64,000 bases of DNA from Prauserella isguenensis (GTDB taxonomy: Bacteria; Actinomycetota; Actinomycetes; Mycobacteriales; Pseudonocardiaceae): the NCBI RefSeq assembly GCF_014191605.1, contig NZ_JACHWU010000008.1, positions 62,001-126,000 on the forward strand, read 5' to 3'. Below the pieces are notes generated by a model. That model was not told the DNA's origin, did no database searches, and saw only the letters and a program-made list of their open reading frames with translations. How positions within the stretch are numbered: position 1 is the stretch's first letter; each line of letters starts with the position of its first letter. Shown piece after piece: positions 6,478 to 40,765 of the stretch. Both the position numbers and the translations under genes were made by a program.

Positions 6478-7062
6478 TCACCAGGCGTCGGCGAGCAGCT
6501 GCCGAGTCTGACCCAGCAGTTGCGGCAACACCTTCGTCTGGCCGACGACCGGCATGAAGTTGGAGTCGCCGCCCCACCGCGGCACGACGTGCTGGTGCAG
6601 GTGCGCGGCGATACCGGCGCCCGCGATCACGCCCTGGTTCATGCCGATGTTGAACCCGTGGGCGGCCGAGACGTTCCGGATGACCGTCATGGCGCGCTGG
6701 GTGAACTCCGCGAGTTCGCGCGTCTCGTCGGCGGTGAGTTCGGTGTAGTCGGCCACGTGCCGGTACGGCACGACCATCAGGTGCCCGGGGTTGTACGGGT
6801 ACAGGTTGAGCACCGCGTACACGACCGAGCCGCGCGCGAGGATCAGCGCCTCCTCGTCGTCGGCGCCTGTGATCCGGCAGAACGGGCAGCCATCGGCCTC
6901 GTCGCCCGACGGTTTGTTCTCGCCCTGGATGTAGGCCATCCGGTGCGGGGTCCAGAGACGTTGCAGTTCGTCCCGGACCCCGACACCGTCCTGGCCTTCG
7001 AGCGCGGGTTCCGCGGCACCGCCGGCACCCGCGCCGCGCCCGCCGGCCGCGTCACCGGCCAA
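6478..7062 (-). CDS. HIT family protein, likely Ap4A phosphorylase
   Basis: 194 residues. The histidine triad is present as [14 protein letters not shown], preceded by [17 protein letters not shown] and a GCPFCRI cysteine pair. It closely resembles M. tuberculosis Rv2613c, a diadenosine tetraphosphate phosphorylase, including the upstream segment [13 protein letters not shown]. The conserved N-terminal part rules out a start at the internal Met before AYIQGE. A TTG at 7062 has GGAGG six bases upstream and overlaps the thrS stop by 11 bp. thrS-HIT coupling is conserved, and aminoacyl-tRNA synthetases are a main source of Ap4A, which makes functional sense. Confidence 0.85.
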
Positions 7063-9082
7063 CAAGAGCCTCCAGTGCCTCGGCCGTCGGGGAGGTGTTC
7101 TCACGCCGGGCGATCCAGTCGCCGATCGCCTGCACCGCACGGTCCACCGGAACGCCGTTGATCTGGCTGCCGTCGCGGAATCGGAACGACACCGCACCCG
7201 CGTCGACGTCCTTGCCGCCCGCAAGCAGCAGGAACGGCACCTTCTGCGTGGTGTGGGTGCGGATCTTCTTCTGCATCCGGTCGTCGCTGGTGTCGGTCTC
7301 GACGCGGATCCCCTTGGCGCGCAACGCCTTCTCGACACCGCGCAGATGTTCGACGTGCTCGTCGGCGATCGGGATCCCCATCACCTGCACCGGCGACAGC
7401 CATGCCGGGAACGCACCGGCGTAGTGCTCGGTGAGCACACCGAAGAACCGCTCGATCGACCCGAACAGCGCGCGGTGGATCATGATCGGCCGCTGCCTGC
7501 TGCCGTCCGGTGCGGTGTATTCGAGCCCGAACCGCTTGTTCTGGTTGAAGTCCAGCTGGATGGTCGACATCTGCCAGGTGCGCCCGATCGCGTCCTTGGC
7601 CTGAACCGAGATCTTCGGTCCGTAGAACGCGGCGCCACCGGGGTCGGGAACCAGCTCGAGGCCGGACTCCTCGGCGGCCTCCCGCAGCGTCTCGGTGGCC
7701 TCCTCCCATTCCCAGTCCTCACCGATGAACTTGTCCGAGTCGCCGCGCGTGGACAGTTCGAGGTAGAAGTCCGAAAGGCCGTAGTCGGCGAGCAGATCCA
7801 GCACGAACCGCAGCAGCGAACGCAGTTCGCCGGGCATCTGCTCCTTGGTGCAGTAGATGTGCGAATCGTCCATCGTCAACCCGCGCACACGCGTCAGGCC
7901 GTGCACGACACCCGACTTCTCGTAGCGGTACACCGTGCCGAACTCGAACAACCGCAGCGGCAACTCGCGGTACGAGCGTCCACGGGAGCGGAAGACGAGG
8001 TTGTGCATGGGGCAGTTCATCGCCTTGAGGTAATAGTCCTCGTCGTCGAACTTCAACGGCGGGAACATCGTGTCCGCGTAGTACGGCAGGTGCCCCGAGG
8101 TCTCGAACAGCTCACCCTTGGTGATGTGCGGGGTGTTGACGAACTCGTAGCCCGCCTCCTCGTGACGACGGCGCGAGTAATTCTCCAGCTCCCGCCGGAT
8201 GATGCCGCCCTTAGGGTGGAACACCGGCAGGCCGGAGCCGATCTCCTCGGGGAACGAGAACAGGTCGAGCTCGGCGCCCAGCTTGCGGTGATCGCGCCGT
8301 TCGGCCTCGGCCATGCGCTCGAGGTACTCGTCCTGCGCCTCGGCCGATTCCCATGCGGTGCCGTAGATGCGCTGCAGCTGCCGGTTGTTCTCATCACCGC
8401 GCCAGTACGCGGCAGCGCTGCGGGTGAGCTTGAACGCGGGGATGAACTTCGTCGTGGGCACGTGCGGCCCGCGGCACAGGTCGCCCCAGACGCGTTCCTT
8501 GCTCCGCGGGTCCAGGTTGTCGTAGATCGTCAGCTCGCCGCCGCCGACCTCCATCACCTCATCGGTATCCACATCGGACTTGAGGTCGACGAGCTCCAGC
8601 TTGAACGGCTCGTCGGCGAGCTCGGCCTTCGCGTCGTCGACCGAGTCGACGACGCGGCGGGAGAACTGCTGCGAGCCCTTGATGATCTGCTTCATGCGCT
8701 TCTCGAGCGCCTGCAGGTCCTCGGGCGTAAACGGGGTGTCGACGGCGAAGTCGTAGTAGAAGCCGTCCTTGACCGGCGGGCCGATGCCGAGCTTGGCGTC
8801 GGGGAACTGCTGCTGCACGGCCTGGGCGAGCACGTGAGCGGCCGAATGACGGATCACACTGCGGCCGTCCTCGGTGTTGGCGGCGACCGGCTCGACCTCG
8901 GCGTCCGCGTCGGGCGCCCAGGCCAGGTCGCGCAGCGCGCCGTCGGTGTCACGGACGACGACCACGGCGTCGGCACCCTTGCTCGGCAGGCCCGCCTCAC
9001 GCACCGCGGAACCCGCCGTAGTGCCCGCCGGCACCACCACGCGTTCGGTGGCTTCGGAGGCGGCGAACGACGGCTGGGACAC
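7052..9082 (-). CDS. thrS: Threonyl-tRNA synthetase
   Basis: 676 residues, full length. Domains in order: TGS (about 1-75); the editing domain with the zinc-like motifs [12 protein letters not shown] (HxxxH) and [12 protein letters not shown]; the class II catalytic core with zinc ligand Cys in [18 protein letters not shown], motif 2 ([20 protein letters not shown]) and motif 3 ([18 protein letters not shown]); and the C-terminal anticodon-binding domain. The GTG at 9082 is chosen because AAGGAG lies seven bases upstream and the protein then begins SQPSFA as in relatives. It heads the thrS-HIT unit. No T-box-like leader is visible. Confidence 0.97.
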
Positions 9083-12207: not shown

Positions 12208-12258
12208 CCACTCACCCCACCACCTAGGCATGACCTCCATTGTCCATGCCGCTCCGTC

Positions 12259-13689
<1,431 letters not shown>

Positions 13690-13848
13690 TCAAGATGACG
13701 AAGGACACACGCGGCGACGCGGCCGTGGAGCGCCGCCCCAGCCGCCCGTCGACGATCTCACCGGTCGGGCTCAGCGTGGCTGGCGACAGAGCAGCGAGGT
13801 GGATCGGGATGTCGTGTTCCGCACCGGAGCGTGCACGCCGGCGGCCGC

Positions 13849-14859
13849 TTACAGTGCGCTCAGCACCCGCGACAGCACGATCACGCCGCACAGCACACCG
13901 TTGAACACCCGGTGAGCCACCAGGACGGCGATGAACTCCCGGACGACCGCGCTGGACCAGAAGTACCACGCCGTCGGTGCGCCGACGACCTGTCCGTCGA
14001 GCTTCGCCTTCCGCGCGAGCAGCGCGGCCCGCAGGACGTGGAAGTTGTTGGTCACCACGACACACCCGTAGTCGCTCGTGCGCGCTCGCATGAGCTCGGC
14101 ACTGAACATCAGGTTCTCCCACGTCGTCGTGGAACGGTCCTCCACCATCACCCGGTCGGAGGGGACACCGTGGGATACCAGATGGTCGCGCATGGCGTGG
14201 GCCTCCGGGACCTCCTCGTCCGGCCCCTGCCCGCCGGAGGTGACGAGTATCGGATCCGCGCCGCGGGCGCGCTGCTCGTCGAACACCTCGCGGCCGCGGC
14301 CGAGCCGACTCGCCAGCAGCGGCGGCACCCGCCGCCCGTCCAGCAGGCCTGCGCCCAGCACGACGATGTAGTCGACGGGACGGCGGGAGCGGATCCGACC
14401 GTAGACGACCGAGTACAGCAGGAAGCACACGAACAGGAACGACACGTAGAACAGCACGCCCGTGATCGCCGTGGCCGTGACCGTGAGGGGCTTCCAGTCG
14501 ATCAGCGCGACGAGTAGCTCAGCCGGAACGTAAGCGACAATGCCGATGCCCGCCAGCAGCGAGACCAGGTTCGCCGGTCGCCGGCCCTCCCGGCGGAGCA
14601 TCGTGACCCCACTGGCGATCAGGAAGACCCCGAACGCCAGCACGGACACCGGGATCAGCAGCACGCCGATCATGAGCAGCACCCGCGCCGTGTCCTCGGA
14701 GACCGTGCCCACCACCAGCAGCATCGCCACGGCCAGGGACGCCAGCGCGAGGAACAGGTACACCCCGTTGCGCAGCTTGCGCCGGTCGCGCAGGAAGCTG
14801 ACGAGGAATGCCGTGAAGAACAGTGCGGCGGGGACGAACGCGATCGGTGACACGCTCAC
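13849..14859 (-). CDS. YdcF/SanA-family (DUF218) membrane protein
   Basis: 336 residues. About five hydrophobic segments fill the first 150 residues. The soluble DUF218 domain follows with DYIVVLGAGLLDGRRVPPLL, ILVTSGGQGPDEEVPEA and VEDRSTTTWENLMFSAEL, then VVTNNFHVLRAALLARK; the C terminus is again hydrophobic. Family members are linked to envelope integrity and vancomycin sensitivity, but the biochemical role is uncertain. GTG 14859 with GGGGG upstream gives the best start. Nothing adjacent suggests an operon partner. Confidence 0.8.
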   Translation of the reverse strand: MSVSPIAFVPAALFFTAFLVSFLRDRRKLRNGVYLFLALASLAVAMLLVVGTVSEDTARVLLMIGVLLIPVSVLAFGVFLIASGVTMLRREGRRPANLVSLLAGIGIVAYVPAELLVALIDWKPLTVTATAITGVLFYVSFLFVCFLLYSVVYGRIRSRRPVDYIVVLGAGLLDGRRVPPLLASRLGRGREVFDEQRARGADPILVTSGGQGPDEEVPEAHAMRDHLVSHGVPSDRVMVEDRSTTTWENLMFSAELMRARTSDYGCVVVTNNFHVLRAALLARKAKLDGQVVGAPTAWYFWSSAVVREFIAVLVAHRVFNGVLCGVIVLSRVLSAL

Positions 14860-15035
14860 GGGAGCCCCCGCATCGTCGTTGCGGCCGGAACACGGCGCGC
14901 GCACCCGGCGACTGTCATCAACGGTCCGCGCCGTCGGACCTGTCCCGACTCTCCACCATGTACAGGATTAGACCACAGCGAGCGATGTGGCGCCCCGCCC
15001 GCGACACGACATCGCAGCGGCGCCCGGCGCGGTTG

Positions 15036-16330: not shown

Positions 16331-16857
16331 GGGGTACCTCCCGTGTTCTCGGACCCGCTGCCGGCACCGCCCTGCTCGGGCCGGATGGTGCCGAGGAACT
16401 CCTCGAAATCGGCGAACACGGGTTGAAACGTCTCCGGAGTGGAGCTGAGCACGACCTGGATCACCGCACGCCGCGCCGGGTCGGCGGTGTCGGTGAATCC
16501 CATGAACACCTGGTACTGCACCAGATACCGGCGACGGCCCGCCACGTCGGCGTCGATCCGCAGCGGCTGGGTGTACACCGGGTTCTCGGCGGTGCCCGTG
16601 GCCTGCGTGTTGCCCACCTTCACCTCGTACGCACCACGGCGCAGCCGCTCCGCAGCCTCGGCGGCCACATCGGACAGTGGCACGTCACCGCCGCGCACCT
16701 CACCGGTGATCGTGATGTTCGCGGTGAAGCCGTCCCCGCCCGTGTCGGGCCGCAGTGCCACGAACGCCGCGTTCGGCGTACCGATCTCGTCCGGCGACAC
16801 CGACACCCAGCCCTCCGGCAGGGAGAACTCGATCGGCACCGGGATCGTCGTTGCCAT
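16327..16857 (-). CDS. Small beta-rich protein (LpqN/DcrB-like), possible type VII chaperone
   Basis: 176 residues, no signal peptide. The sequence begins IPVPIEFSLPEGWVSVSPDEIG and ends VVLSSTPETFQPVFADFEEFLGTIRPE, a layout like the DcrB/LpqN fold (beta-sheet against two helices), though without a lipobox. Proteins of this kind recur next to EspC-like targets in actinobacteria and could act as cytoplasmic chaperones, but that is inference. ATG 16857 is preceded by AAGG seven bases away; a GTG at 16863 is possible. It is 39 bp downstream of the repeat-protein gene. Confidence 0.55.
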   Translation of the reverse strand: MATTIPVPIEFSLPEGWVSVSPDEIGTPNAAFVALRPDTGGDGFTANITITGEVRGGDVPLSDVAAEAAERLRRGAYEVKVGNTQATGTAENPVYTQPLRIDADVAGRRRYLVQYQVFMGFTDTADPARRAVIQVVLSSTPETFQPVFADFEEFLGTIRPEQGGAGSGSENTGGTP

Positions 16858-16896: not shown

Positions 16897-18492
16897 TCAG
16901 AAGCCGAGCGCATTGCCCACGCTACTGATCGCATCGCCTGCCCTGTCCTTGGCGCCGCCGACCGCGTCACCCACGGCCTGGCCCGCGTCGCTCACGGCAT
17001 CGCCGGCACTCGTCGCCGCGTCGACCACACCGCCCGGGTCGACCGACACGTCGAAGCCGACCTTGCCGCCGACGCCGAGTGCGGCACCGGCGGACGCCCC
17101 GATGTGGAACTTGCCGTCGTCCCCCATGCCGAACTGGGCGTCGGCGGACGCACCGACACCGGCCCACGCCTCGCCGTTGACACCGGCGCCGACACCGGCG
17201 ACCTCACCGCCGACGTCACCGCTGGCCTTGGCACCGGCGAACGCCTCGGCGCTGACATCGGCACCGGTGAGACCGACGCTGGCGTCGGCGGACGCCTCGG
17301 CGCCCGCCATGGCCTCACCGCTGGCCGACACGCCGGCGTGGTCGCCGAAGTTCAGCTCGCCCTCGACATCGCCTCTCGCACCGACGAACGCCTCGGCACT
17401 GGCCTGTGCGCCGAGCGCGTCGACGCTCGCCTCGGCGCCCGCGTCACCGCCCACGAAACCGCTGGCGCTGCCGCTGCCCGACACGCCCATCCCGGTGTCG
17501 AACTCGCCTTCCACCTCGCCCTTCGCCAGGTAGGCCTCGGCGTTCGCGCCCGCGGCGAAGCCGTCCTCGGTGACCTCGGCGTACGCACCGGCGCCGGCGC
17601 CGAGCACCGACCCCGAACCGGAGGCACCCGCCGACATGTCGCCGTACTCGGCACCCACGTCGAACTCGCCGCCCGCGACCTCGACGTCGTCGCCGACCTC
17701 GTGGCGCACCGGGTCGATGCCGAGCATGCCGGGACCGGGCAGGTCGATGCCCAGGCTGTCGAACAACTCTCTGGCGCCGTCGTGCATGAGCTTGTCGGCC
17801 GGTTCGTCGCCGACCGTGTTCTGGTAGCTGCGGTTGCCGTTCTGGTCCGTCTGCCAGCCACCGGTGTCGACGTCCTCCCACCGGCCGGTTTCCGGGTTGA
17901 ACTGCCGTTGCGTCTGCCGGTTGTCGGCGCCGAACTTCCGCTCGCCGAACTCGTGCTGGAACCGGCCCTCCTCGTCGTGGGTCATGCCGAGCGCCATGGC
18001 CACGACCCCGCCTTCCGCGGCAACGGCCTTCCGCGCGGCGTCGAGGATCTGCTGTGCCTCCGCCATGGCGGGCCCGCCCGGGTCCTCGAACGGTGCGATC
18101 GGGCCGCCCACCATCGGGCCCAGCGCACGCTGCGCGTCGTACTGTGCCTTCGCGGCCCGGCTGGCCGCCCTCGCCTGGTGGTACAGCTCGATCGCACGCT
18201 GCGCCTCGCCCTGCCCCCAGGTCAGGATGTCGGCGTAGTTCGCCAGCTGTCCGCCGCCGTGCCCGACGGCCTCGGCGGCCTGCCCCCACTTCGGCGGCTC
18301 TTCGGCGAAGACCGACCGGAACGTCGTCGCCGCGTCACCGACCCAGCCGGCCGGGTCGATCGTCCCGAGCGTGGAACCGATCTCGTCGGCGACGTTGATC
18401 GGATCGACCAACGACCCCAGGTCGGACGAGATCACCTCGGGTTCGCCCGGAATGAGCGCCTTCGGGTCGTCGGTCTGCCCCAGTTCCGCCAT
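16897..18492 (-). CDS. Putative type VII-secreted protein with Gly/Ala-rich tandem repeats
   Basis: 531 residues in four parts. (1) Residues 10-115: helical T7SS signal-like domain with a WVG turn (50-52), conserved Trp69 and Trp92 and a helix ending ELYHQARAASRAA. (2) Residues 170-260: polar domain with EFGERKFGADNRQTQRQFNP and GGWQTDQNGNRSYQN. (3) Residues 270-480: Gly/Ala-rich alternating sequence with an imperfect repeat of 48-49 residues keyed by AEAYLAKGEVEGEF (318), AEAFVGARGDVEGEL (366) and AEAFAGAKASGDVGGE (415). (4) Residues 485-531: amphipathic Ala/Gly helix. No known toxin domain is visible. ATG 18492 has AGGAG five bases upstream and overlaps the stop of the EspC-like gene. Confidence 0.7.
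   Translation of the reverse strand: MAELGQTDDPKALIPGEPEVISSDLGSLVDPINVADEIGSTLGTIDPAGWVGDAATTFRSVFAEEPPKWGQAAEAVGHGGGQLANYADILTWGQGEAQRAIELYHQARAASRAAKAQYDAQRALGPMVGGPIAPFEDPGGPAMAEAQQILDAARKAVAAEGGVVAMALGMTHDEEGRFQHEFGERKFGADNRQTQRQFNPETGRWEDVDTGGWQTDQNGNRSYQNTVGDEPADKLMHDGARELFDSLGIDLPGPGMLGIDPVRHEVGDDVEVAGGEFDVGAEYGDMSAGASGSGSVLGAGAGAYAEVTEDGFAAGANAEAYLAKGEVEGEFDTGMGVSGSGSASGFVGGDAGAEASVDALGAQASAEAFVGARGDVEGELNFGDHAGVSASGEAMAGAEASADASVGLTGADVSAEAFAGAKASGDVGGEVAGVGAGVNGEAWAGVGASADAQFGMGDDGKFHIGASAGAALGVGGKVGFDVSVDPGGVVDAATSAGDAVSDAGQAVGDAVGGAKDRAGDAISSVGNALGF
17143..17541 (-). repeat. Tandem coding repeats of about 145 bp
   Basis: Three imperfect units encode residues 318-365, 366-414 and 415-450 of the putative secreted protein. 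Each begins AEA(Y/F) and carries a GxVxGE segment 8-14 residues later; the third is truncated. Confidence 0.6.
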
Positions 18493-18935
18493 CACCGCTC
18501 CTGTCCCTCGCTACCGGCACCGCCGTCGAGAACGGCGGTGATGCCACCCGCGGCCGCGCCGCCGAGCGCGCCGCCGAGGCCGCCCGCGATACCGCCGACA
18601 GCGCCGCCCACGGCCCCGCCTGCGGCCATACCGCCCGCCGCGCTCTCGAACGCGTTGCCCAGCGTGTCCATCGACGACCGGGTGTCGTCGTCGGATTCGA
18701 GGTACTGGGCAGCGGCCGATCCGAGCTGGCCCCCCAGTTCCTCGGCCTTGCCCTTCAATGTCTCGAAATGCTTGCGCATGCTCTCGATGTAGAGCTGCCA
18801 CGCCTGCTGCACCGCGTCGTTCCCGTAGTCACCGCTAGGGCCCTGCCACATCAGACCGGCCGCGCCCCCTGCGGTCTCACCGATCCGTCCCGCGGTCCCG
18901 CGCAGTTCGTCAGGAACGGCATCGAAGCCTGTCAT
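18492..18935 (-). CDS. EspC-like (DUF2580) type VII secretion target
   Basis: 147 residues. Helix-turn-helix pattern of the EspC/WXG100 superfamily: FDAVPDELRGTAGRIGETAG, a turn at MWQGPSGDYGND, then a second helix with conserved aromatics. The C-terminal export motif YxxxD is present as YLESD (78-82). Unlike classic 100-residue members it carries a Gly/Ala-rich, GxxxG-like tail (about 100-140) that may form a hydrophobic hairpin. AAGGAG precedes the ATG at 18935. It is first gene of the module and overlaps the next, so the two products probably leave the cell together as partners. No ESX core genes lie in the window. Confidence 0.75.
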   Translation of the reverse strand: MTGFDAVPDELRGTAGRIGETAGGAAGLMWQGPSGDYGNDAVQQAWQLYIESMRKHFETLKGKAEELGGQLGSAAAQYLESDDDTRSSMDTLGNAFESAAGGMAAGGAVGGAVGGIAGGLGGALGGAAAGGITAVLDGGAGSEGQER

Positions 18936-19094
18936 GGTCCCCAACTCCTTCGCCTTTCGGCGGCGTCGCCGGCAGTCGCACGGCCGCCGGACCACCGCTC
19001 GTACGTAACTGCTGACGCGGCGCGGTCGGGCCGGGTTCCCGCCGGAGGTGAATTTCCGTCAACTCGGGCGAACCGCCCTCGTCGCACACACGAA

Positions 19095-19122
19095 GGACGG
19101 GCCGGGATGTCCCGGCCCGTCC
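19095..19122. terminator. Hairpin downstream of the htpG fragment
   Basis: A perfect 13-bp inverted repeat (19095-19107 / 19110-19122). It occupies the same position relative to the htpG fragment as the large hairpin at 23751-23838 does relative to htpG, and shares the GGGCCGGG core. Confidence 0.7.
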
Positions 19123-19168
19123 CCGACGTGCGGTGTTCGGCTGTGCTCGGTTGGGAGCGCGGCCGCGC

Positions 19169-19327
19169 TCAGCCGAGGACGGCCGCCGGCCTGCCCGCGA
19201 GCAACCGGACGAGTTCGTGCGGATCCGGCAGCGGCCGGCGCGGCCTGCGGCAGATGCGGACCAGTTCGGGGTTCGAGTCACCCTCGTCCCCGACGATGCA
19301 GGCAAGCCCTGTCCTCAACGCCCTCAT
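19169..19327 (-). pseudogene. Truncated, internally deleted copy of the htpG 3' end
   Basis: A 52-codon frame runs from ATG 19327 to TGA 19169. Its product contains ACIVGDEGD, NPELVRIC, PLPDPHELVRLLAGR and ends in LG, aligning with HtpG ACIVGDEGDLSPELVRIY and LPDPHAFAQLLAGRLAAGLG. Relative to htpG, 153 bp (51 codons, in frame) are missing exactly between two copies of TCCGGCAGC (htpG 23938-23946 and 24091-24099; single copy here at 19224-19232). Nucleotide similarity covers about 19089-19303. The ATG is 16 bp downstream of the siderophore ATPase stop, so it could be cotranscribed. It retains only the end of the C-terminal dimerisation domain and is most likely a nonfunctional relic. Confidence 0.8.
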
Positions 19328-19343
19328 CGCCCGCACCCGAGAA

Positions 19344-20138
19344 CTAGCTGGTACGGCCCAGCAACTCGTAAGGCAGGCATTGGGGGCTGCCGTTCCGTGG
19401 GTCGTAGAAGATGTCGGCCTTGACGCCGAAGACGTCGCCGAGCATGTGCGAGGTCATGACCTCATGTGGTGATCCGGCGGCATAGACCCGACCCTCGCAG
19501 AGCGCGATCATCTGGTGCGAGTAGCGCGCGGCACTGTTGAGGTCGTGCAGCACCATGACGGCAGTCTGACCCTCTTCCCGGTTCAGGCGAGCCAGTAGTT
19601 CGAGTACCTCGAGCTGATGGGCCATATCGAGGTAGGTCGTGGGCTCGTCCAACAACAGGGTGTCGGTCTGCTGCGCCAGAGCCATGGCGATCCAGGCGCG
19701 CTGGCGCTGGCCACCGGACAATGTGTCCAGCGCCCGGTCGGCGAACCCGTCCACGCCGGTGATCTCCAGGGCGCGCGCGACAGCCCGCTCGTCGGATCTG
19801 GACCACTGTCGGAGAAAGCTCTGGTGCGGGTAACGGCCCTGCGACACCAGTTCGCGGGTGGTCAACCCCTCCGGAACGTGTGGGCCTTGGGGCAGTACGC
19901 CCAACCTCTTCGCAACCTCACGTGTCGCAAGGTTGGCTATGACCTCTCCATCGAGGTGAACGCTGCCCGTGCGTGGCTTCAGCAGACGCGCCATCGAACC
20001 CAGCAGAGTGGACTTCCCGCAGCCGTTCGGGCCGATTATCGACGTGATCCGGCCCTCCGGCATGGCTACGGAAAGGTCCTCCAACACCGTGGAGTCCTCG
20101 TAGGCGAACGTGATGCGCTCCGTACTGAGCTTACTCAC
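19344..20138 (-). CDS. Ferric-siderophore ABC transporter, ATP-binding protein
   Basis: 264 residues, FecE/FepC type. Walker A is GPNGCGKST, the ABC signature [18 protein letters not shown], Walker [17 protein letters not shown] and the switch His [14 protein letters not shown]. The sequence [26 protein letters not shown] is typical of iron-chelate importers. It powers import by the two permeases encoded upstream. GTG 20138 has GAGGCGAGA upstream. Codon choice (AGT, CTT, GTA, ATA) is looser than in neighbouring genes, supporting acquisition of the cluster. Last complete gene of the transporter unit. Confidence 0.93.
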
Positions 20139-20204
20139 AGTTCTCGCCTCTCCGACGGGATCACTGATCCTCCAGCATTCTCTCCGTGTCCGGGCATGCG
20201 AGAT

Positions 20205-21272
20205 CTATCCGTTCCTGTTCCGATAGAGCAGATACAAGAAGAAGGGCGCGCCGAGAACTGCGGTGACGATTCCGGCAGGCAGCTCCACGGGAGCGAACAG
20301 GGCTCGTCCGACGAAATCCGCACCCACGACTATCGTGGCTCCCGTAGCCGCGGCCGCGGGTATGAGGCCCCCGTAGGCCGGGCCGACCAGGTGGCGAGCG
20401 ATGTGCGGGGCCATCAACGCGACGAAACCGATCGTTCCCGCCGTCGCCACGGCGGTACCGGCCAGTCCGACGCTCGTCAGCAGCAGCAGCCCGCGCACCT
20501 TTTCGACAGGGAGCCCCAGAGCACGCGCCACGTTGTCGCCCAAATTCATCGCAGCGAGATGGCGGGAAAGCAACAGTGCCAACGGAAAGAACACCAACAA
20601 CCACGGCGTGAACGAGTAGAAATCGTCCCAACCCCGACCGTAGACACTGCCGGCGAGCCAGACCAGGGCGACCGAAGCCTGTTCTATCTCACCAACGGCT
20701 ATCAAGAGCGTCGCGCCGGCGCCGGCGACAGCGCTCAGCCCGATACCGACGAGCACCAACCGTAATGGCGATCCCTTCCTCCGCCATGCCAACAGGTACA
20801 GCAACCCGGCCGCAAGAAAAGCACCGGCCAGTGCTGCTGGTTGCAGATAGACGATGGAGGCCGCCGGCGCGACCACGATCAGACTCACCGCCGCCAACGA
20901 TGCCCCGGCGTTGATACCGACGATATCCGGCGCAGCGAGGTCGTTGCGCGTGAGTCCCTGCAGTATCACCCCGCTCACCCCCAGCGCAGCTCCCACAGCC
21001 ACGGCGACCAGGGCACGGGGCAGGCGCAGACTGTTGACCACAAAAGCGTGGCCACCGTCATCCCCCAACCCGACAAGCGTGCGTACGACCTCGACCGGTG
21101 ACACCGGATACTCTCCGTACCCGACATTTGCCACCAGCCCGGCGAACGCAGCCAACGAGAGCACGCAGATGATCAGGACCGAGCGCAGGTTCAGCCTCAG
21201 CGAGACCGGTCCGGCTCGAAGCGTTGCCTCACGGGCTTTCGGGCGGGAGGCGATGGGCGCGAGCCGTGCCAT
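20205..21272 (-). CDS. Ferric-siderophore ABC transporter permease (FecD/FepG type)
   Basis: 355 residues with about nine to ten membrane helices. FecCD family landmarks: LRLPRALVAVAVGAALGVSG, LQGLTRNDLAAPDIVGINAG and the coupling segment GTIGFVALMAPHIARHLVGP, ending in GAPFFLYLLYR. It forms a heterodimeric pore with the next permease. The ATG at 21272 lies just inside the stop codon region of the upstream permease (one base apart), so expression is coupled. The N terminus (about 35 residues) is a basic cytoplasmic extension. Confidence 0.93.
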   Translation of the reverse strand: MARLAPIASRPKAREATLRAGPVSLRLNLRSVLIICVLSLAAFAGLVANVGYGEYPVSPVEVVRTLVGLGDDGGHAFVVNSLRLPRALVAVAVGAALGVSGVILQGLTRNDLAAPDIVGINAGASLAAVSLIVVAPAASIVYLQPAALAGAFLAAGLLYLLAWRRKGSPLRLVLVGIGLSAVAGAGATLLIAVGEIEQASVALVWLAGSVYGRGWDDFYSFTPWLLVFFPLALLLSRHLAAMNLGDNVARALGLPVEKVRGLLLLTSVGLAGTAVATAGTIGFVALMAPHIARHLVGPAYGGLIPAAAATGATIVVGADFVGRALFAPVELPAGIVTAVLGAPFFLYLLYRNRNG

Positions 21273-21273
21273 A

Positions 21274-22272
21274 TTACTGCGACACCTTGTTACGCGCCAG
21301 GTAGATGAAGAACGGAGCACCCACGACAGCGGTGGTCACACCGACAGGGATTTCGTGGACCGGAAGGACCACACGCGAGATGATGTCGGCGCCGAGGAGC
21401 ACTATCCCTCCGATGATCGCAGAGTAAGGCAGGATCCAGCGATAGTCCACACCGACGAAGAAGCGCACCGCGTGTGGGACCACGAGCCCGATGAAGCCCA
21501 CCGGCCCCGCCACGGCGACTGCGCTGCCCGCCAGGAGGACCACCGAGAGCACGGCGAGAGATTTCGTGAGACCGGTCTTCTGTCCCAGACCACTGGCCAC
21601 CTCCTCGCCGAGCATGAGTGCAGTGACCTGGCGGCTCAGAGCCAACGCGAGTGCGAACCCCACAAGGACATAGGGCGATATCTGCTGCAGCAGCTCCAGG
21701 TCACGCCCGAGTACCGAGCCGGCGAGCCAGAACCGGATCGTATCCATGGTCTGCTCGCTGAGTACCAGGGTCGCCGTGGTGAATGACGACAGGAGCGCCG
21801 CAACTGCCGCCCCACCGATGGCCAGCCGCATCGGCCTCATCCGCCCGCGGCCCATCGAGCCGATCCCGTACACGACCGTGGCGGCGATCGCCGCCCCGAC
21901 GAATGCGAACGGTGCAAACGTCGACGATGCCGTTCCACCGAACACGAACACCGTCGTCACCACGGCGAAGGCGGCCCCGGCGTTGATTCCGAGTATTCCC
22001 GGATCGGCCAATGGGTTGCGCGTAATTCCCTGCATAATGGCACCTGCTACCGCCAGGCAGGCTCCGACCAGGGCCGCGGCGAGTGCACGTGGAACCCGAA
22101 TGGTGCGGATGATCAGGTCATCTCGGGATCCGTCGTAGTCGCCGAACGCCCGAACCACGTCCGTCACGCCGATACCGGCCACGCCGAAGTTGACGCTGAC
22201 GACGAGGCCTGCAGCCAGAAACACCGCACATACCAGCAGTCCGAAAAGGAGCGTGCTCCTCGACCGCAACAT
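21274..22272 (-). CDS. Ferric-siderophore ABC transporter permease (FecC type)
   Basis: 332 residues, FecCD fold. Signatures are IRVPRALAAALVGACLAVAG, MQGITRNPLADPGILGINAG, GPVGFIGLVVPHAVRFFVGV and a C-terminal VGAPFFIYLARNK. It pairs with the downstream permease; both share the ATPase encoded at 19344. The ATG at 22272 is 40 bp downstream of the binding-protein stop, consistent with one operon in the order binding protein, permease, permease, ATPase. Confidence 0.93.
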   Translation of the reverse strand: MLRSRSTLLFGLLVCAVFLAAGLVVSVNFGVAGIGVTDVVRAFGDYDGSRDDLIIRTIRVPRALAAALVGACLAVAGAIMQGITRNPLADPGILGINAGAAFAVVTTVFVFGGTASSTFAPFAFVGAAIAATVVYGIGSMGRGRMRPMRLAIGGAAVAALLSSFTTATLVLSEQTMDTIRFWLAGSVLGRDLELLQQISPYVLVGFALALALSRQVTALMLGEEVASGLGQKTGLTKSLAVLSVVLLAGSAVAVAGPVGFIGLVVPHAVRFFVGVDYRWILPYSAIIGGIVLLGADIISRVVLPVHEIPVGVTTAVVGAPFFIYLARNKVSQ

Positions 22273-22312
22273 GGAGATGACCCGTCCGCCTGAGTTCGAT
22301 CAGTCCGACCAA

Positions 22313-23287
22313 CTACCGCCCGTCGAACAACTCGACCGCCTCCTCCGCGATCAGTTCCATGGAGACGAGCCCCCGCGACCGGGTCCACAGGGCCCGACTC
22401 ACCGCGTGGACGTCCCCGTTCTCCACCGCGGTGAGCTTCCGCCACACCTCCGATGACTCCCAGGGCTTCATCGTGGTCTCCGCGTCGGTCATGACGAACA
22501 ACACGGCGGGGTCGATCTCTGCCAACCCTTCCAACCCCGTCGAGGCAGAGTCCGCGTCCGCGGGATACGCCGCCGCCTCTGGTGCATAGGGAACCCGCAC
22601 TCGATCGAGGATGTCAGCCACGTACGACCCCTCTCCCAGAACCTGCGCCGTTCCGCGCTCGCGGGGAATGACGGCCAGTGAGTGGCTGCCATCGCCTTCG
22701 GAGTCGGCTCGCGACAACTCGTCGAGCCGACCTTCGAGACGTCCGATCTCCGCGTTCATTTCCTCCGTCTTGTTGATGGCATCGCCGACCTGTCGAGCCA
22801 CATCCAGCGTTTTCTCGTAGCCGGCGTACCGGGCGGTGAACACAACCGTCGGGGCGATCGCACTCAGTTCGTCGTAAATCGCCGCGTGACGGTCGTTGTC
22901 GGCGATTATCAGGTCGGGTTCGAGCTTTGCGATCTGCTCCAGATTGGGCTCAGACCGGCTACCGACCGACTCCCACTCGCCGATCCTGCTCCGCACCTCA
23001 GGGATCAGGTTCTCCGGGTCGCCGTCGTCGACCAGCCCGACCGGGCTCACCCGAAGGGAAGCAAGCATGTCGATATACGGAAGCTCGAGCGCGACGATTC
23101 GCTGGGGCTGCGTGGGGACCTCGGCCTCACCCATGTCATGTTCGACTGTGCGGGTGGGCCCAGACGCGGCGTCTCCACCCCCTTCGCCTCCGGCCGTGGC
23201 GCACGCAGTGAGCAGTACGATACTCAGAATCATTCCGAAAATCGTTTCGGTGCCACGTTTCAACCATCGCCGCTCGCGACAAATCAT
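22313..23287 (-). CDS. Iron-siderophore substrate-binding lipoprotein
   Basis: 324 residues. A type II signal peptide (basic MICRERRWLKRG, hydrophobic core) ends in the lipobox LLTAC. The mature part is a class III/TroA-like fold with QRIVALELPYIDMLASL, VGSRSEPNLEQIAKLEPDLIIA and GLEGLAEIDPAVLFVMTD, typical of FepB/FecB-type proteins. It captures the ferric chelate outside the membrane for the FecCD-type permeases. No siderophore biosynthesis genes accompany it, so the ligand may be a xenosiderophore or one made elsewhere. ATG 23287 has GGAG ten bases upstream. Confidence 0.9.
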   Translation of the reverse strand: MICRERRWLKRGTETIFGMILSIVLLTACATAGGEGGGDAASGPTRTVEHDMGEAEVPTQPQRIVALELPYIDMLASLRVSPVGLVDDGDPENLIPEVRSRIGEWESVGSRSEPNLEQIAKLEPDLIIADNDRHAAIYDELSAIAPTVVFTARYAGYEKTLDVARQVGDAINKTEEMNAEIGRLEGRLDELSRADSEGDGSHSLAVIPRERGTAQVLGEGSYVADILDRVRVPYAPEAAAYPADADSASTGLEGLAEIDPAVLFVMTDAETTMKPWESSEVWRKLTAVENGDVHAVSRALWTRSRGLVSMELIAEEAVELFDGR

Positions 23288-23597
23288 GTCGAGCACACTC
23301 CATTCTGGACGCGTTCTCTCGCCCTTGTCCGGCAACCGAAACAGGCCGCCGTACGCCGGATCCGGTAACGAGCCGGACACGGCAGCGGAACGGCCGGTCT
23401 CGCACGTCCGGAGGAGATGCCGGTTCAGTGGCATACGAACTCCAGGACGCCCGTGATCTGCTGCGGAAACTCTGATCGAGCGACGTAGGAGTATCAACGA
23501 TCCGAGGACGAAAAGGACCGGATACGTGACCACCGGACCGCGATGAAGAACGAACGGCGCGCAGGCGAGACGACCCGAGCAAGGACAACGCACCCTT
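23288..23597. other. Leader/intergenic region of the siderophore importer
   Basis: About 310 bp between the promoter palindrome and the binding-protein start. An open frame continues upstream of ATG 23287 but has no signal-peptide-compatible start or recognisable sequence. I see no gene here. Confidence 0.5.
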
Positions 23598-23627
23598 GGT
23601 TATAGTCGTAAATATAACCGTGGTTAG
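23598..23627. promoter_or_regulatory. AT-rich palindrome, candidate iron-regulated operator
   Basis: GGTTATA (23598-23604) and TATAACC (23613-23619) form a perfect 7-bp inverted repeat with an 8-base spacer in the only clearly AT-rich stretch of the region, followed by TGGTTAG. It is 311 bp upstream of the siderophore-binding protein. The half-sites recall DtxR/IdeR boxes (AGGTTA...TAACCT), but spacing does not match the 19-bp consensus. Confidence 0.4.
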
Positions 23628-23750
23628 AATTTATCTGTGACGCTCACGCGTATGTCATAGCCGGCTCGTCGGGTCAATGGTTCGGCCGGTACAGCTCCGC
23701 CGACTCTTGGCTTCGCGTCGTCATTCGACGGGACATCGGAACATGAGAAA

Positions 23751-23838
23751 GGGCGGGCCGGGGATTGAACTGCTCCCAGCGGTCGGACTGTCAATCAGTT
23801 CCGACCGCGGGAAGCGTTCAGAGTTCCCCGGCCCGCCC
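23751..23838. terminator. Large cruciform-like terminator downstream of htpG
   Basis: The outer stem (23751-23764 / 23825-23838) is a perfect 14-bp repeat. An inner stem (23779-23787 / 23800-23808, 9 bp plus flanking partial pairing) closes a small TCAAT loop. The whole 88-nt structure sits 45 bp after the htpG stop. Confidence 0.8.
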
Positions 23839-23882
23839 CTACGGCTGGTACGCGCGGTGTTCGGCTCCGAGCCCTCGCCGGC

Positions 23883-25838
23883 TCAGCCGAGGCCGGCGGC
23901 CAGCCTGCCCGCGAGTAGCTGGGCGAACGCGTGCGGGTCCGGCAGCTCCTCACCCTCGGCCAGCAGCGTGGTGCCGTACAGCAGCTGTGCCACGTCGGGC
24001 AGCGACGGGTCGTCGGCGTTCTTCGCGTGGGACTCACGCAGCCCGGCGACGAGCGCATGCTCCGGGTTGATCTCCAGGATGCGCTTGACGTCCGGCAGCG
24101 GCTGGCCCAACTGGCGGTAGATGCGGACCAGTTCGGGGCTCAGATCGCCCTCGTCACCGACGATGCAGGCCGGCGACGTCGTCAGCCGCGACGACAACCG
24201 CACGTCCTTGACCTCGTCCGACAGGGTCTCGCGGAGCCACTCCACCAGCCCGGCGAACTCCTCCTTCGTCGCCTCGTCGGTCGAATCGTCGGCCTCGCCG
24301 TCCCCGTCGAGGTCCACCTCACCCTTGGCGATCGACCGGAACGTCTTGCCCTGGAACTCGGCCCCCGAGTCGACCCACATCTCGTCGACCTGGTCGGTGA
24401 GGATCAGCACCTCGACGCCCTTGCTGGTGAAGGCCTCCATGTGGGGCGACTTCTCCACCATCTCGCGCGAACGGCCGGTCAGGTAGTAAATGTGCTCCTG
24501 ACCCTCGGGCATACGCGCGACGTACTCGGCGAGGGTGGTCTGCTCGTCGGCCGAACGGGTCGAGTCGAACGAGGCGATCTCGAGGATGTCCTGCCTGCTG
24601 TCCGGGTCGGTGACCAGTCCCTCCTTCACGCAGGTGCCGAACTGGCTCCAGAACGTGCGGTACCTGTCCCGGTCCCCGGACTCCTCCGACTTGACCAGAC
24701 CGGCCACGGTGGACAGCACCTTCTTGGCGAGCCTGCGCCGCATGGCGCGGATCTGGCGGTCCTGCTGGAGGATCTCCCGCGAGACGTTCAGCGACAGGTC
24801 CTGCGCGTCGACGACACCCTTCACGAAGCGCAGATACTCGGGCATCAGCTCTTCGCAGTCGTCCATGATGAACACGCGCTTGACGTAGAGCTGCACGCCG
24901 CGCTTCGCCTCGCGGGTGAACAGGTCGAACGGCGCACGCGAGGGCAGGAACAACAGTGCCTGGTACTCGAACGTGCCCTCGGCCTGCAGCCGCATCGTCT
25001 CGAGCGGGTCCGCCCAGTCGTGGCTGATGTGCTTGTAGAACTCGTTGTACTCGGCGTCGGTGACCTCGCTGCGCGGACGGGCCCACAGCGCCTTCATCGA
25101 GTTGAGCGTCTCCGGCTCGACGACGGTCTCCTCGGACTCGCCGTCCTCACCCTGCTTGACCCGCTCGACCTCCATACGGATCGGCCACGCGAGGAAGTCC
25201 GAGTAGCGGGTGACGATCCGCCGCAGAACGCCGGTGTCGGTGTAGTCGTGCATGCCGTCGTCGGTGTCGACGGGCTTGAGGTGCAGGGTCACGGCGGTGC
25301 CCTGCGGGGCATCGGGCACGTCGGCGATCGTGTACGTCGCCTCGCCCTCGGACTCCCAGCGGGTGCCGACGGTCTCGCCCGCCTTGCGGGTCACGACGGT
25401 GACCTTGTCGGCGACCATGAACGCGGAGTAGAAGCCGACGCCGAACTGCCCGATGAGGTCGCTGCCCTGGGCCTCCTGGGCCGACTTGAGCTTCTCCAGC
25501 AGCTCGGCCGTGCCGGACCGGGCGATCGTGCCGATGAGGCCGACCACCTCGTCGCGCGACATGCCGATGCCGTTGTCGCGCACGGTCAGTGTCCGCGCGG
25601 CAGGATCGCGTTCCAGCTGGATGTGCAGGTCGTCGGTGTCGACGTCCAGGTCCTTGTCGACCATCGACTCGAGCCGCACCTTGTCCAGCGCGTCCGACGC
25701 GTTGGACAGCAGCTCCCGCAGGAACACGTCCTTGTCCGAATAGATCGAATGCACCATCAGTCGCAGCAGCTGCCGCGCCTCGGCCTGGAACTCGTGCGTC
25801 TCGGCCTGCTGCTCCGACTCCACTGCCTTCTCCGCCAT
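23883..25838 (-). CDS. htpG: Chaperone HtpG (Hsp90)
   Basis: 651 residues, full length. The GHKL ATPase domain shows ELLSNASDALDKVR, DNGIGMSRDEVVGLIGTIARSGT and LIGQFGVGFYSAFMVADKV. The middle domain contains WADPLETMRLQAEGTFEYQALLF-like sequence and LSLNVSREILQQD with the catalytic-loop Arg region; the C-terminal dimerisation domain ends AQLLAGRLAAGLG. An acidic insertion (VDLDGDGEADDSTDEATKEE, about 520-540) is notable. It is transcribed alone, with a terminator hairpin on the siderophore-importer side. A degenerate copy of its last codons lies at 19169-19327. Confidence 0.96.
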   Translation of the reverse strand: MAEKAVESEQQAETHEFQAEARQLLRLMVHSIYSDKDVFLRELLSNASDALDKVRLESMVDKDLDVDTDDLHIQLERDPAARTLTVRDNGIGMSRDEVVGLIGTIARSGTAELLEKLKSAQEAQGSDLIGQFGVGFYSAFMVADKVTVVTRKAGETVGTRWESEGEATYTIADVPDAPQGTAVTLHLKPVDTDDGMHDYTDTGVLRRIVTRYSDFLAWPIRMEVERVKQGEDGESEETVVEPETLNSMKALWARPRSEVTDAEYNEFYKHISHDWADPLETMRLQAEGTFEYQALLFLPSRAPFDLFTREAKRGVQLYVKRVFIMDDCEELMPEYLRFVKGVVDAQDLSLNVSREILQQDRQIRAMRRRLAKKVLSTVAGLVKSEESGDRDRYRTFWSQFGTCVKEGLVTDPDSRQDILEIASFDSTRSADEQTTLAEYVARMPEGQEHIYYLTGRSREMVEKSPHMEAFTSKGVEVLILTDQVDEMWVDSGAEFQGKTFRSIAKGEVDLDGDGEADDSTDEATKEEFAGLVEWLRETLSDEVKDVRLSSRLTTSPACIVGDEGDLSPELVRIYRQLGQPLPDVKRILEINPEHALVAGLRESHAKNADDPSLPDVAQLLYGTTLLAEGEELPDPHAFAQLLAGRLAAGLG

Positions 25839-36844: not shown

Positions 36845-37186
36845 TCATTCCCGTCCGGAACGCAGGCGTTGCGCCAGCTCGTCCACCACCAGTGTGGAAC
36901 GGTCGACACCGCCCGTGCGGTAGGCGGCGCGCCCGAACAGCTGCGACAACGCCGGCGCTGTGATGACCTGGAACAACCCTGCCAGCACGAGGCCGACCGC
37001 GAAATGCGGCTCGAGTCGCACCGCCGTGCCGGCGAGGATGAGCAGCAGTCCGAGTGTCTGCGGCTTCGTCGCCGCCTGAAGCCGGCTCAACGTGTCCGGC
37101 AGTCGCACCATGCCCCACGCGCCGATCACGCAGAACAACGCACCCGAGATCAGCCCGACCGCGCTGACCCAGTCCCGCACGCTCAT
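36845..37186 (-). CDS. mnhG: Mrp Na+/H+ antiporter subunit G
   Basis: 113 residues with three membrane helices. MnhG/PhaG features: GLISGALFCVIGAWGMVRLPDTLSRLQAATKPQTLGLLLIL. Small structural subunit of the Mrp multi-subunit antiporter. ATG overlaps the mnhF stop (ATGA). Last gene of the operon. Confidence 0.93.
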   Translation of the reverse strand: MSVRDWVSAVGLISGALFCVIGAWGMVRLPDTLSRLQAATKPQTLGLLLILAGTAVRLEPHFAVGLVLAGLFQVITAPALSQLFGRAAYRTGGVDRSTLVVDELAQRLRSGRE

Positions 37187-37449
37187 CGGTACTCCTCCCT
37201 GCGCTCGACGAGCCGCACCACCGAGATCGTGCCGACGAAGCCGAGTAGCGCGACCACCACGATGAGGGCGATGTAGATACCCCGCGACGACATCGCCATA
37301 CCCACCGCCGTCCCCGCGACGATCAAGATCACCAGCACGTCGACCGCGAGGATGCGATCCAACGTGCGCGGCCCGCGCACGACGCGCAGCATCGTCAGCA
37401 GGCCTGCCACGCCGAGCAGACCGAACGTGACCGCAAACACGACGTTCAT
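37183..37449 (-). CDS. mnhF: Mrp Na+/H+ antiporter subunit F
   Basis: 88 residues, three membrane helices. The LRVVRGPRTLDRILAVDVL segment is the MnhF/PhaF signature (RGPT..DRI.A.D). Implicated in cation/bile-salt efflux within the complex. Overlaps mnhE and mnhG by four bases each, so translation is coupled. Confidence 0.93.
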   Translation of the reverse strand: MNVVFAVTFGLLGVAGLLTMLRVVRGPRTLDRILAVDVLVILIVAGTAVGMAMSSRGIYIALIVVVALLGFVGTISVVRLVERREEYR

Positions 37450-38186
37450 CGGTCCTCCCGCCTGTTCTCGTCGACCTCGGCGACGTCATCGGGGCCGTCG
37501 GCACCGGCCTCGCCGCCACCGTCGGACTCACCGTTTCGGGACTCGGCGTTTCGGAACTCGGCCTCCGAGGCGGCGACCGCCGCGACGGGAGACGGCTGCT
37601 GAGGCCGGCAGACCGGGGAACGGTCTCGCTCCCGTTTCGCCTCCTCGGCCCGACTTCGTGCTGCGGGAGCCTCCTGCTCGTCACCGAACGCCCACACGAC
37701 GACGTGCTGCATGTCGACCACGTTGTCGTAGGCCTTGTGCGCGTCCTCCGCGGTGCGCACACCGGTCGTATAGACGTACCAGATGCCGCGGGAACGGTCG
37801 ATCTGCAGCACGAACGTGCCCGGTGCGAGCGAGACGACGTTTGCGGCCGAGGCGATCACGTGGTCGACGTCGGAGAGCACCGGCACCGCCATGATGGCCG
37901 CCGACACCCGCCCCGACTCGCGAAGAGTGTCCACGAAAAAGCGGACCGCCGATCCGACCAGATCGACGATGACATACCCAGCCAGAATGACCAGCCGCCA
38001 CGGCCTGTGGAAGATGTTCCACCGGTGCGACGGCAACGGGAACACCACGAGGACGATCAGTGCGACGAGGAGCCCGTACACGGCCGTCGCCACGTCGAAT
38101 GTTCCCCACAGCAACATCCATACGACGACGAGCCAGATCATCAGCGACGGCGCGATGCGGTTTCCGTGCCTCCTACGCCTGGGCAT
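37446..38186 (-). CDS. mnhE: Mrp Na+/H+ antiporter subunit E
   Basis: 246 residues. The first 165 match MnhE: helices near 15-55, then RPWRLVILAGYVIVDLVGSA and AANVVSLAPGTFVLQIDRSRG with HVVVWAF closing the domain. A C-terminal charged, disordered extension of about 70 residues (Arg/Glu then Gly/Asp-rich) is longer than in most homologues. Starts within the mnhD stop (TGATG overlap). Confidence 0.9.
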   Translation of the reverse strand: MPRRRRHGNRIAPSLMIWLVVVWMLLWGTFDVATAVYGLLVALIVLVVFPLPSHRWNIFHRPWRLVILAGYVIVDLVGSAVRFFVDTLRESGRVSAAIMAVPVLSDVDHVIASAANVVSLAPGTFVLQIDRSRGIWYVYTTGVRTAEDAHKAYDNVVDMQHVVVWAFGDEQEAPAARSRAEEAKRERDRSPVCRPQQPSPVAAVAASEAEFRNAESRNGESDGGGEAGADGPDDVAEVDENRREDR

Positions 38187-39718: not shown

Positions 39719-40188
39719 CGGATCCGGGCCTCCTCGTCGTCCTCGCCGGGGCGGCTCTCGGGCGCCTCGGGTGCTTCGAAACCGGCGACGCGCTCGCTCT
39801 CCGGCCCCTCGTCCTCGACCTTCCTGGCAGCCTGTTCGGCTCTCGCGATGCGGCGGTCCTCGACGTCGTCCTGTACCTCGTCGTGGCCGAGCAACGCCCA
39901 GGACCGGTAGGCGAGCGCGAGCAGGAACGTCGTGAGCGCGAACGTGATCACGATCGCGGTCAGCGCGAGCGCCTGTGGGAGCGGATCGACCATCGCTTCC
40001 AGCACTGCGGAGCCCACGAACGTCGGCTCGCCGGGCGGACCGCCCGCGACCTGCAGGAACAGGTTCGCCCCGTGGCCGAGGATCACGATGCCCAGGATCA
40101 CGCGCATCAGCGAGCGCTGCATGAGCAGGTAGAAGCCGACGGAGTAGAGGCCGGCGAGCGTCACGGCCATGGTGATGTTGATGGTCAT
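39715..40188 (-). CDS. mnhC: Mrp Na+/H+ antiporter subunit C
   Basis: 157 residues. First 105 residues are a NuoK-like three-helix protein (LYSVGFYLLMQRSLMRVILG, GHGANLFL, DPLPQALALTAIVITFALT). A charged tail of about 50 residues follows. ATG 40188 with GAGAGGGGA upstream; seven bases after mnhB. Confidence 0.93.
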   Translation of the reverse strand: MTINITMAVTLAGLYSVGFYLLMQRSLMRVILGIVILGHGANLFLQVAGGPPGEPTFVGSAVLEAMVDPLPQALALTAIVITFALTTFLLALAYRSWALLGHDEVQDDVEDRRIARAEQAARKVEDEGPESERVAGFEAPEAPESRPGEDDEEARIR

Positions 40189-40195
40189 CGACGCG

Positions 40196-40765
40196 TCATC
40201 CCCTCTCCTCCTCGAGCTGTTCGTCGTCCACACCGGGCCCGCCGACCTCGGTGCCCGCACCGATGGTGCGCAGCAGATCCACCACGACTCCGATGATCAA
40301 CAGGTAGACACCGAGGTCGAGCAGCAGATTCGAGGTGATCTTGAGTTCACCGAGGACAGGAAGCTGGAGCTTCCAGATCCCCGACGCGAGTACCGGGTCA
40401 CCGAACACCACCGGCGCAAGCGCGGTGAGCACCGCGATGGCCAGGCCGCTCCCGATGACGACGGGCGGGCGCACACGCACCATCATCGCCAGCTCGGCGC
40501 TACCTCCCGCGACATAGCGGAGCACGAAGGCCAGAGCGGCGACCAGGCCGCCGCTGAACCCGCCGCCTGCGTTGTTGTGCCCGGCGAGCAACAGATAAAC
40601 CGAGAACACGAGCACCGTCGGGAACAGCACTCGAGCAATGACCTCGAGCAGCAGCGACCGTGGCCATGAGTAGGCGTCCTGCTCGGTCATCAGCCAACGT
40701 TCGCGGGGCGTGTCCCACTCCGTCCACGGCACGGACTCGCGCGGGTCGTCGGGGCGATCGGTCAC
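40196..40765 (-). CDS. mnhB: Mrp Na+/H+ antiporter subunit B
   Basis: 189 residues. MnhB family: LLLEVIARVLFPTVLVFSVYL, AGHNNAGGGFSGGLVAALAF and LLDLGVYLLIIGVVVDLL, with an acidic C terminus. The GTG overlaps the mnhA stop (GTGA); the internal Met before TEQDAYSW is an alternative start. Stand-alone mnhB indicates a seven-subunit (group 1) Mrp system. Confidence 0.93.
   Translation of the reverse strand: MTDRPDDPRESVPWTEWDTPRERWLMTEQDAYSWPRSLLLEVIARVLFPTVLVFSVYLLLAGHNNAGGGFSGGLVAALAFVLRYVAGGSAELAMMVRVRPPVVIGSGLAIAVLTALAPVVFGDPVLASGIWKLQLPVLGELKITSNLLLDLGVYLLIIGVVVDLLRTIGAGTEVGGPGVDDEQLEEERG

Follow-up and report, generated by a model that had tools for sequence, protein, structure and literature searches.

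A siderophore-importer cassette beside htpG in Prauserella isguenensis: probable one-sided insertion at a recurrent site, with the old gene tail displaced

Foreign genes are set beside conserved genes in several described systems, and here we compare with them a locus of Prauserella isguenensis in which a four-gene ferric-siderophore importer lies between the intact chaperone gene htpG and a second, decayed copy of the htpG 3' end. In homology-facilitated illegitimate recombination (HFIR), an experimental reaction, one end of the incoming DNA is joined by homology and the other without it, and foreign DNA comes to lie beside a conserved anchor; in the part of the source cited here, this is usually accompanied by a deletion of similar size and by microhomology of 3-10 bp (PMC3240628). 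In the type VI secretion system (T6SS) clusters of Vibrio cholerae, effector genes are displaced serially, and the portion of the account used here proposes HFIR as the process (PMC5361080). The minimal mobile elements (MME) of Neisseria are, in the cited part of their description, different whole-gene cassettes found between the same two conserved genes and defined between strains (PMC3082526). At integrase-free hotspots the flanking core genes recombine, and the model given in the excerpt drawn on here is a double homologous exchange (PMC5635113).

The stretch analysed (64,000 nt, referred to as the window) belongs to a genome labelled G000. It was compared with a genus set of seven congeners (G000-G006, where G006 is Saccharomonospora sp. 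CUA-673), all of which contain htpG, and with a wider family set of 200 genomes. As far as the cited parts of the four accounts go, the locus resembles HFIR in having foreign DNA beside a conserved anchor, and differs in that neither a deletion nor microhomology can be read at the htpG site without the donor. With the T6SS clusters it shares a conserved upstream stretch acting as the anchor and older pieces (in Vibrio once an effector 3' end) pushed outward and kept; the immunity genes retained there are thought to be under selection, whereas here the retained piece is a decaying chaperone tail and the cargo is unrelated. Like MME, it has different cassettes at one conserved spot and no integrase or transposase in the scanned cargo; unlike them, it varies between species, has left a displaced tail behind and is without the opposite flanking gene in G003. 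The locus also recalls the integrase-free hotspots, in that its cargo turns over with no mobility genes and the core gene beside it recombines (the htpG tract of G001 and G002, see below). However, a double exchange leaves no duplicated tail, and therefore a first, one-sided event must have created the present state. We consider it probable that a cassette was inserted one-sidedly, anchored in htpG, at a site used recurrently, and that the old htpG tail was displaced by it.

All genes, gene remnants and terminators of the window described below are located on the minus strand. Intact htpG (23883-25838; NCBIfam HtpG, 754 bits), the presumed homology anchor, runs without a break through the junction, and the window contains two copies of its tail. 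Its coding sequence (CDS) limits, like those of the siderophore-binding protein (SBP) gene, were read from translations and are likely. The second copy of the 3' end and terminator occupies 19092-19303, beyond the importer and on the same strand, in agreement with an earlier note on this DNA. When aligned, 19224-19303 and 24091-24170 were identical at 67 of 80 positions (84%), and 19111-19232 and 23827-23946 at 97 of 124 (78%). In local alignments with the htpG tails of G000, G002 and G005 this relic scored 95, 103 and 95, respectively. In each test all of 1268 control windows of the same length, tiled over the joined contigs of G000-G003, and all of 300 Markov shuffles fell short of these scores; windows close to htpG or to the known tail copies, 97 in total, had been removed from the tiled controls beforehand. 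The note had put the length of the copy at 160 bp, which is too short: about 190-210 bp of the relic are aligned, representing approximately 288 nt of htpG CDS plus the terminator. The displaced 3' end itself is located at 19169-19303. Intact htpG contains the 9-bp repeat TCCGGCAGC at 23938 and again at 24091, whereas the relic has a single copy (19224) and is missing the intervening 153 bp. The relic has thus shrunk by a 153-bp deletion between the two repeats, which left one of them at 19224-19232.

Similarity continues past the stop codon, as the note had also stated, and includes the terminator hairpin and GCGGTGTTCGGCT, both common to the relic and intact htpG. The hairpin of the relic, probably the old native terminator (19092-19125; 43-nt fold of -35.1 kcal/mol, z -5.3), aligns with the terminators of G005 and G002 and is closer to them than to that of intact htpG in the window. 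The latter (23750-23836), presumed to be the newcomer, forms a hairpin of unusual length that includes about 51 extra nt (106-nt fold of -75.2 kcal/mol, z -8.75), and an 89-nt query over it gave no match in the other six congeners. The extra palindrome was also considered as a known repeat, which was rejected: in the genus search it was found in one place only.

Over 135 sites, the relic departs from the seven-species consensus 7 times at codon position 1, 11 times at position 2 and 7 times at position 3. In the intact G000 tail the differences from the other species number 1, 1 and 10, that is, 10 of 12 at position 3, and in all seven intact genes pooled 60 of 90 fall at this position. When position 3 was compared with the rest (Fisher test), p was 0.004 for G000 htpG alone and 0.001 for the seven pooled genes, which are not independent of each other. 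The substitutions of the relic are spread evenly across the codon positions, and it is therefore free of coding constraint.

The native position of the relic was revealed by comparison with the empty sites. In G004, G005 and G006 an ESX gene pair (16897-18995 in the window) directly follows htpG and its terminator, and its small-protein gene is the first downstream gene of htpG. These three of the seven congeners contain htpG and no importer at this site, as the note had expected of relatives (in G006 an importer is located elsewhere), and no second htpG tail was found at their htpG loci. In the window the relic lies on the ESX side of the cargo, in the native position relative to these neighbours. 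A scripted join of the ESX flank plus relic of the window to the rest of htpG was collinear with G005 except for the 153-bp gap; against G004 and G006 the htpG part aligned and the ESX part was patchy. Since the relic adjoins the ESX genes, which in the empty-site genomes come immediately after htpG, it can most simply be taken as the old native htpG end. It is thus probable, not proven, that the relic is the displaced native end and that the tail now carried by intact htpG is the newcomer.

The same spot is occupied by other cargo in other species: whole-gene cassettes differ between the importer of G000 and an approximately 18-kb sugar/inositol block in G001, G002 and G003, and the site is empty in G004-G006. 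The block is 93-96% identical among its three carriers, and the flanking pieces about 80-92%, mostly below 90%. The distance from htpG to the ESX ortholog measures about 18.5 kb in G002 and about 20 kb in G001; G003 is an exception among the occupied sites, having no ESX pair at this place. The block of G002 contains 15 predicted open reading frames (ORFs), among them those for sugar-isomerase-like proteins, an oxidoreductase, inositol-1-phosphate synthase, a sugar ABC transporter and a ROK protein. The four importer ORFs, these 15 ORFs (the first scanned in part) and two ORFs of the G001 insert described next yielded no integrase or transposase; the block was scanned through its G002 ORFs, and those of G001 and G003 were not scanned separately.

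A further insert of 1.5 kb separates the block from htpG in G001 and G003, and a degraded htpG tail and terminator are located on its far side. When aligned with the G002 tail, these displaced tails scored 84 in G001 and 70 in G003; with the G005 tail the scores were 51 and 48. No control window was as high in either comparison (0/1857 for G001, 0/1742 for G003). We read them as a second displacement, from an earlier G002-like state. Terminator-like stretches of 29-41 aligned bp were also found beside the ESX genes of G001 and G002, and when these were compared with the htpG ends of G005 and G002, none of 1920 windows for G001 and none of 2154 for G002 were as high. As long as the old-terminator stretches of G001 and G002 were among the control windows, one or two windows equalled some of the short-tail scores; once they were excluded, none did. 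Hence the earlier note's treatment of the relic as a scar specific to the importer does not hold, since a displaced htpG tail lies beside unrelated cargo in G001 and G003. It should be mentioned that the 1.5-kb insert of G001 contains a short ORF resembling rRNA adenine dimethylase (L009:2556-3080, 174 aa, partial domain), and similar DNA is present in G003.

Recombination in htpG itself was revealed in G001 and G002. Their htpG genes are 97-99.7% identical in five of six 300-bp bins and 78% identical in the bin spanning the start, so that a tract of high identity adjoins diverged upstream DNA. On the htpG side, 18 of 20 1-kb bins of G002 have G005 as their closest genome. A recombination tract covering htpG beside the shared block is what would be expected if htpG were the handle for the cargo; this is consistent with such a role and is not proof of it. 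No comparable tract stands out in htpG of G000.

To see how often gene tails are found twice, 395 predicted ORFs were taken from the seven homologous loci, and the final 300 bp of each, together with the next 100 bp downstream, were searched for a second time within the same 59-80 kb. Second copies were revealed for 10 ORFs. Four of these are the htpG cases, namely, in G000, htpG and the ATPase gene of the importer that adjoins the relic and, in G002, the terminator pair at htpG. Five, all in G006, are read as paralogues. The remaining one is from G003, where an exact 39-bp direct repeat (joined contig, 14745-14783 and 16353-16391), about 41 kb from htpG, flanks approximately 1.6 kb absent from G005. 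It is read as another insertion with a short duplicated edge at another gene, and therefore htpG is not the sole place in these loci with such a trace.

The following course of events can be proposed. In the ancestor htpG would have been followed by its terminator and then by the ESX genes. The incoming DNA would have consisted of the siderophore importer joined to another htpG tail. One of its ends would have recombined by homology inside htpG, so that the gene stayed whole and gained both a tail and a terminator that were new to it. At its far end the cargo would have been joined without long homology inside the old tail, the joint lying at 19304-19330, between the relic and the part of the importer homologous to G006. 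If the crossover took place upstream of the position matching 24170 of the window, the second tail is simply that of the donor, and no extra duplication step is needed. The old tail, its terminator and the ESX genes would thereby have been pushed about 4.6 kb away, and the tail would have decayed, losing 153 bp between the 9-bp repeats. In G001, G002 and G003 the same spot received the 18-kb block, and in G001 and G003 the 1.5-kb insert as well, so that it would be a recurrent cassette site with the conserved chaperone gene serving as the handle. We infer the direction of transfer, the homology at one end only and the absence of a recombinase at the time of insertion. A broader version, in which the htpG 3' end of this genus is a serial loading dock where each cassette brings its own tail, replaces the end of the gene with it and pushes older tails and cargo outward without a dedicated recombinase, is put forward tentatively, as a possibility that we do not favour; if it were true, decayed htpG tails would form a stratigraphic record of acquisitions.

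An equivalent route would be a single crossover of the Campbell type integrating a circle that carried the last ~290 bp of htpG together with the importer. It would yield exactly the order found, namely whole htpG with a new tail, the cargo, the truncated old tail and the native neighbours, and the anatomy cannot separate it from the linear one-sided route. However, the four ORFs of the 4.3-kb cargo include no replication or mobilisation gene, and the circle itself is unseen; we regard this route as somewhat doubtful.

Several observations weigh against a one-sided insertion of foreign DNA anchored in htpG. Without the donor sequence the one-sided homology is not directly seen, and microhomology at 19304-19330 is unreadable. 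Approaching its 3' end, G000 htpG loses identity to its orthologs to about the same extent as htpG of other species does. The displaced tails of G001 and G003 do not rise above controls when compared with the htpG tails of their own genomes (equalled or exceeded by 14 of 1857 and 17 of 1742 windows), nor do the ESX-side terminators of G001 and G002 when compared with the present htpG end of G000 (383 of 1920 and 96 of 2154 windows). Between the block (~94%) and htpG the identity of G001 and G002 dips to 86-90%, so that they do not share one unbroken tract. The relic is somewhat more diverged from the G002 tail (109/143 identical, 76%) than the adjoining intergenic DNA is from that of G002 (127/153, 83%); the scar is therefore old, not fresh. 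Finally, the ESX side of G000 may, judging from its similarities, itself have been imported, which would reverse the assignment of the resident tail. As to the htpG tail of G000, a clear foreign signature was sought by an identity profile along the gene and was not found; 10 sites specific to G000 fall in the last 200 columns of the htpG alignment, a mild enrichment.

The similarities of the ESX side are the basis of a reading with the reverse polarity, in which the ESX side with its htpG tail came in, from an empty-site relative near G002 or G005, into a resident importer-htpG arrangement. The locus is indeed a mosaic: on the ESX side (16-19 kb) G000 shows 94-96% identity to G002 and about 85-87% to G001, the nearest genome elsewhere, and the side upstream of htpG is closest to G001. 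Three control regions for the relationship of the species were retrieved and two searched; in both G001 is nearest to G000, with 95% over 890 bp vs 83-88% for the other five genomes in the first region and at most 89%, in a patchy alignment, in the second. It is because of this mosaic that the identity of the resident tail is given above as probable and not as proven. On the other hand, an incoming htpG tail would normally pair with the resident htpG and delete the importer, and an illegitimate joint at the same place would still be required. We consider the reverse polarity unlikely.

Site-specific integration at the htpG 3' end, by an element with a replacement tail whose integrase was later lost, would agree with the repeated use of the same spot. 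A replacement tail is typical of integration at gene 3' ends, and the anatomy of the locus fits it; insertion driven by a recombinase would look similar to what is seen. However, no recombinase was found in the cargo scanned: the integrase gene that characterises an integrative element is present neither among the importer ORFs nor among the 15 ORFs of the G002 block, the first covered in part. In addition, the recognisable tail varies in length from about 288 nt of CDS in G000 to about 45 nt in G001 and G003, a difference blurred by decay. Such integration is thus quite improbable here.

Outside the genus, tail copies were sought by a protein search, which gave htpG matches in 153 of the 200 family genomes and two matches in five of them. 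Two of these five, G000 and G073, have tail copies, and G181 contains two full-length genes. The second matches of G020 and G158 were rejected as tail copies, being weak and megabases away. Detectable tail copies thus seem rare outside the genus, in a search that misses short ones and missed the tails of G001 and G003. In G073, which belongs to another genus, the copy is 607 bp long, 99.7% identical, inverted and located 128 kb away (L062:11818-12424 and L063:9941-10547), with an IS4/5-like ORF nearby. The earlier note had held that an htpG fragment without an importer at another location would speak against its proposal; such a fragment exists here, and we read it as a fresh tail copy, a separate event of similar kind and not a refutation. 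It illustrates that tail copies do arise, yet a local partial duplication of htpG without foreign DNA, with the importer landing between the copies later by chance, is very improbable, requiring two independent events at one point, when cargo is located at the same point in three other species and a displaced tail in two of them.

The importer cassette that we believe was inserted beside htpG is bounded, by its homology to another location in G006, at 19331 and 23631 (87.3% identity over 19331-23310 and 77.5% over 23455-23631). It includes genes for an ABC ATPase (19344-20138; ABC_tran, best NCBIfam match FecE with 309 bits, below the curated cut-off of 375), two FecCD-family permeases, numbered 2 (20205-21272; PF01032, E 3.3e-91; G+C content at third codon positions, GC3, 0.756) and 1 (21274-22272; PF01032, E 2.2e-90; GC3 0.778), and a lipoprotein SBP (22313-23287; PF01497), whose nearest solved relative is HtsA (3eiw, E 1.1e-49). 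HtsA is a staphyloferrin A receptor, and our guess is that the ligand of the importer is a carboxylate siderophore. A Peripla_BP_2 SBP, FecCD permeases and an ABC ATPase are the components of FecBCDE-type importers, which the cassette resembles in having the SBP, two permeases and ATPase side by side and HtsA as the nearest solved SBP; it differs in that all four proteins are below the curated NCBIfam cut-offs shown. Naming the SBP as a particular equivalog (FecB, FhuD, FepB and others) was rejected, its best match reaching 235 bits vs a cut-off of 320. An operator-like palindrome, CTAACCgcGGTTAg, lies upstream of the SBP gene at 23598-23629 and, in an alignment of the upstream regions, is recognisable in G000, G006 and G068, a genome of another genus. 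The stretch 23632-23752 was tried as a part of the G001/G003 flank and rejected, with best local scores of just 20 and 17.

The GC3 of the four importer genes is 0.756-0.811 vs 0.818-0.945 in nine of ten neighbouring genes (0.793 in the tenth, znuA), which confirms the looser codon use reported in the note. Together with the empty sites and the tail beyond the cargo, it upholds the part of the note's proposal that linked the insertion to recombination at htpG; excision and reintegration as such was not shown. The importer copy of G006 (87% over 4.0 kb) is located in another variable interval, about 40 kb from htpG; further copies were found in G068 (79.5% identical) and, among the matches listed, in Pseudonocardia parietis (77%). 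The SBP was detected at E<=1e-40 in four of the 200 family genomes, with about 11 candidates scored per genome, one of the four being only 32% identical. The importer is a patchily distributed system of the FecBCDE type. The second variable interval corresponds to 12254-15035 of the window; it measures about 44 kb in G006, including the importer copy, and G001, G003 and G005 also differ there.

On the other side of the relic, the ESX pair consists of a gene for an ESX-associated small protein (18492-18935), with a weak EspC-like match (PF10824, E 5.6e-4, 20.7 bits, below the gathering score of 23.5), and a gene for a protein with a putative type VII secretion system signal domain (16897-18495; PF21725). 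The ortholog of the latter follows htpG in G004-G006 and is fragmented in G006. Beyond the genus, about 20 kb downstream of htpG were searched in G024, G067, G009 and G030, and no ESX match was found. Elsewhere in the window the nearest relative, in most parts G001, switches abruptly to G002 or G005 at 7001-9000 and 37001-43000, and these switches point to frequent recombination between species.

In the literature, covered in part, we found no account of this locus or of htpG as an island site in actinobacteria. The process proposed is an ordinary one of a known kind, here with a housekeeping chaperone gene as the anchor. The locus would illustrate in nature, through its empty sites and alternative cargo, a way in which actinomycetes can place whole operons beside a housekeeping gene while no mobile element is recognisable. 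Such events leave displaced gene tails as a trace that can be read and dated, and a genome-wide search for these tails could reveal how frequent one-sided recombination is outside the transformable model species.

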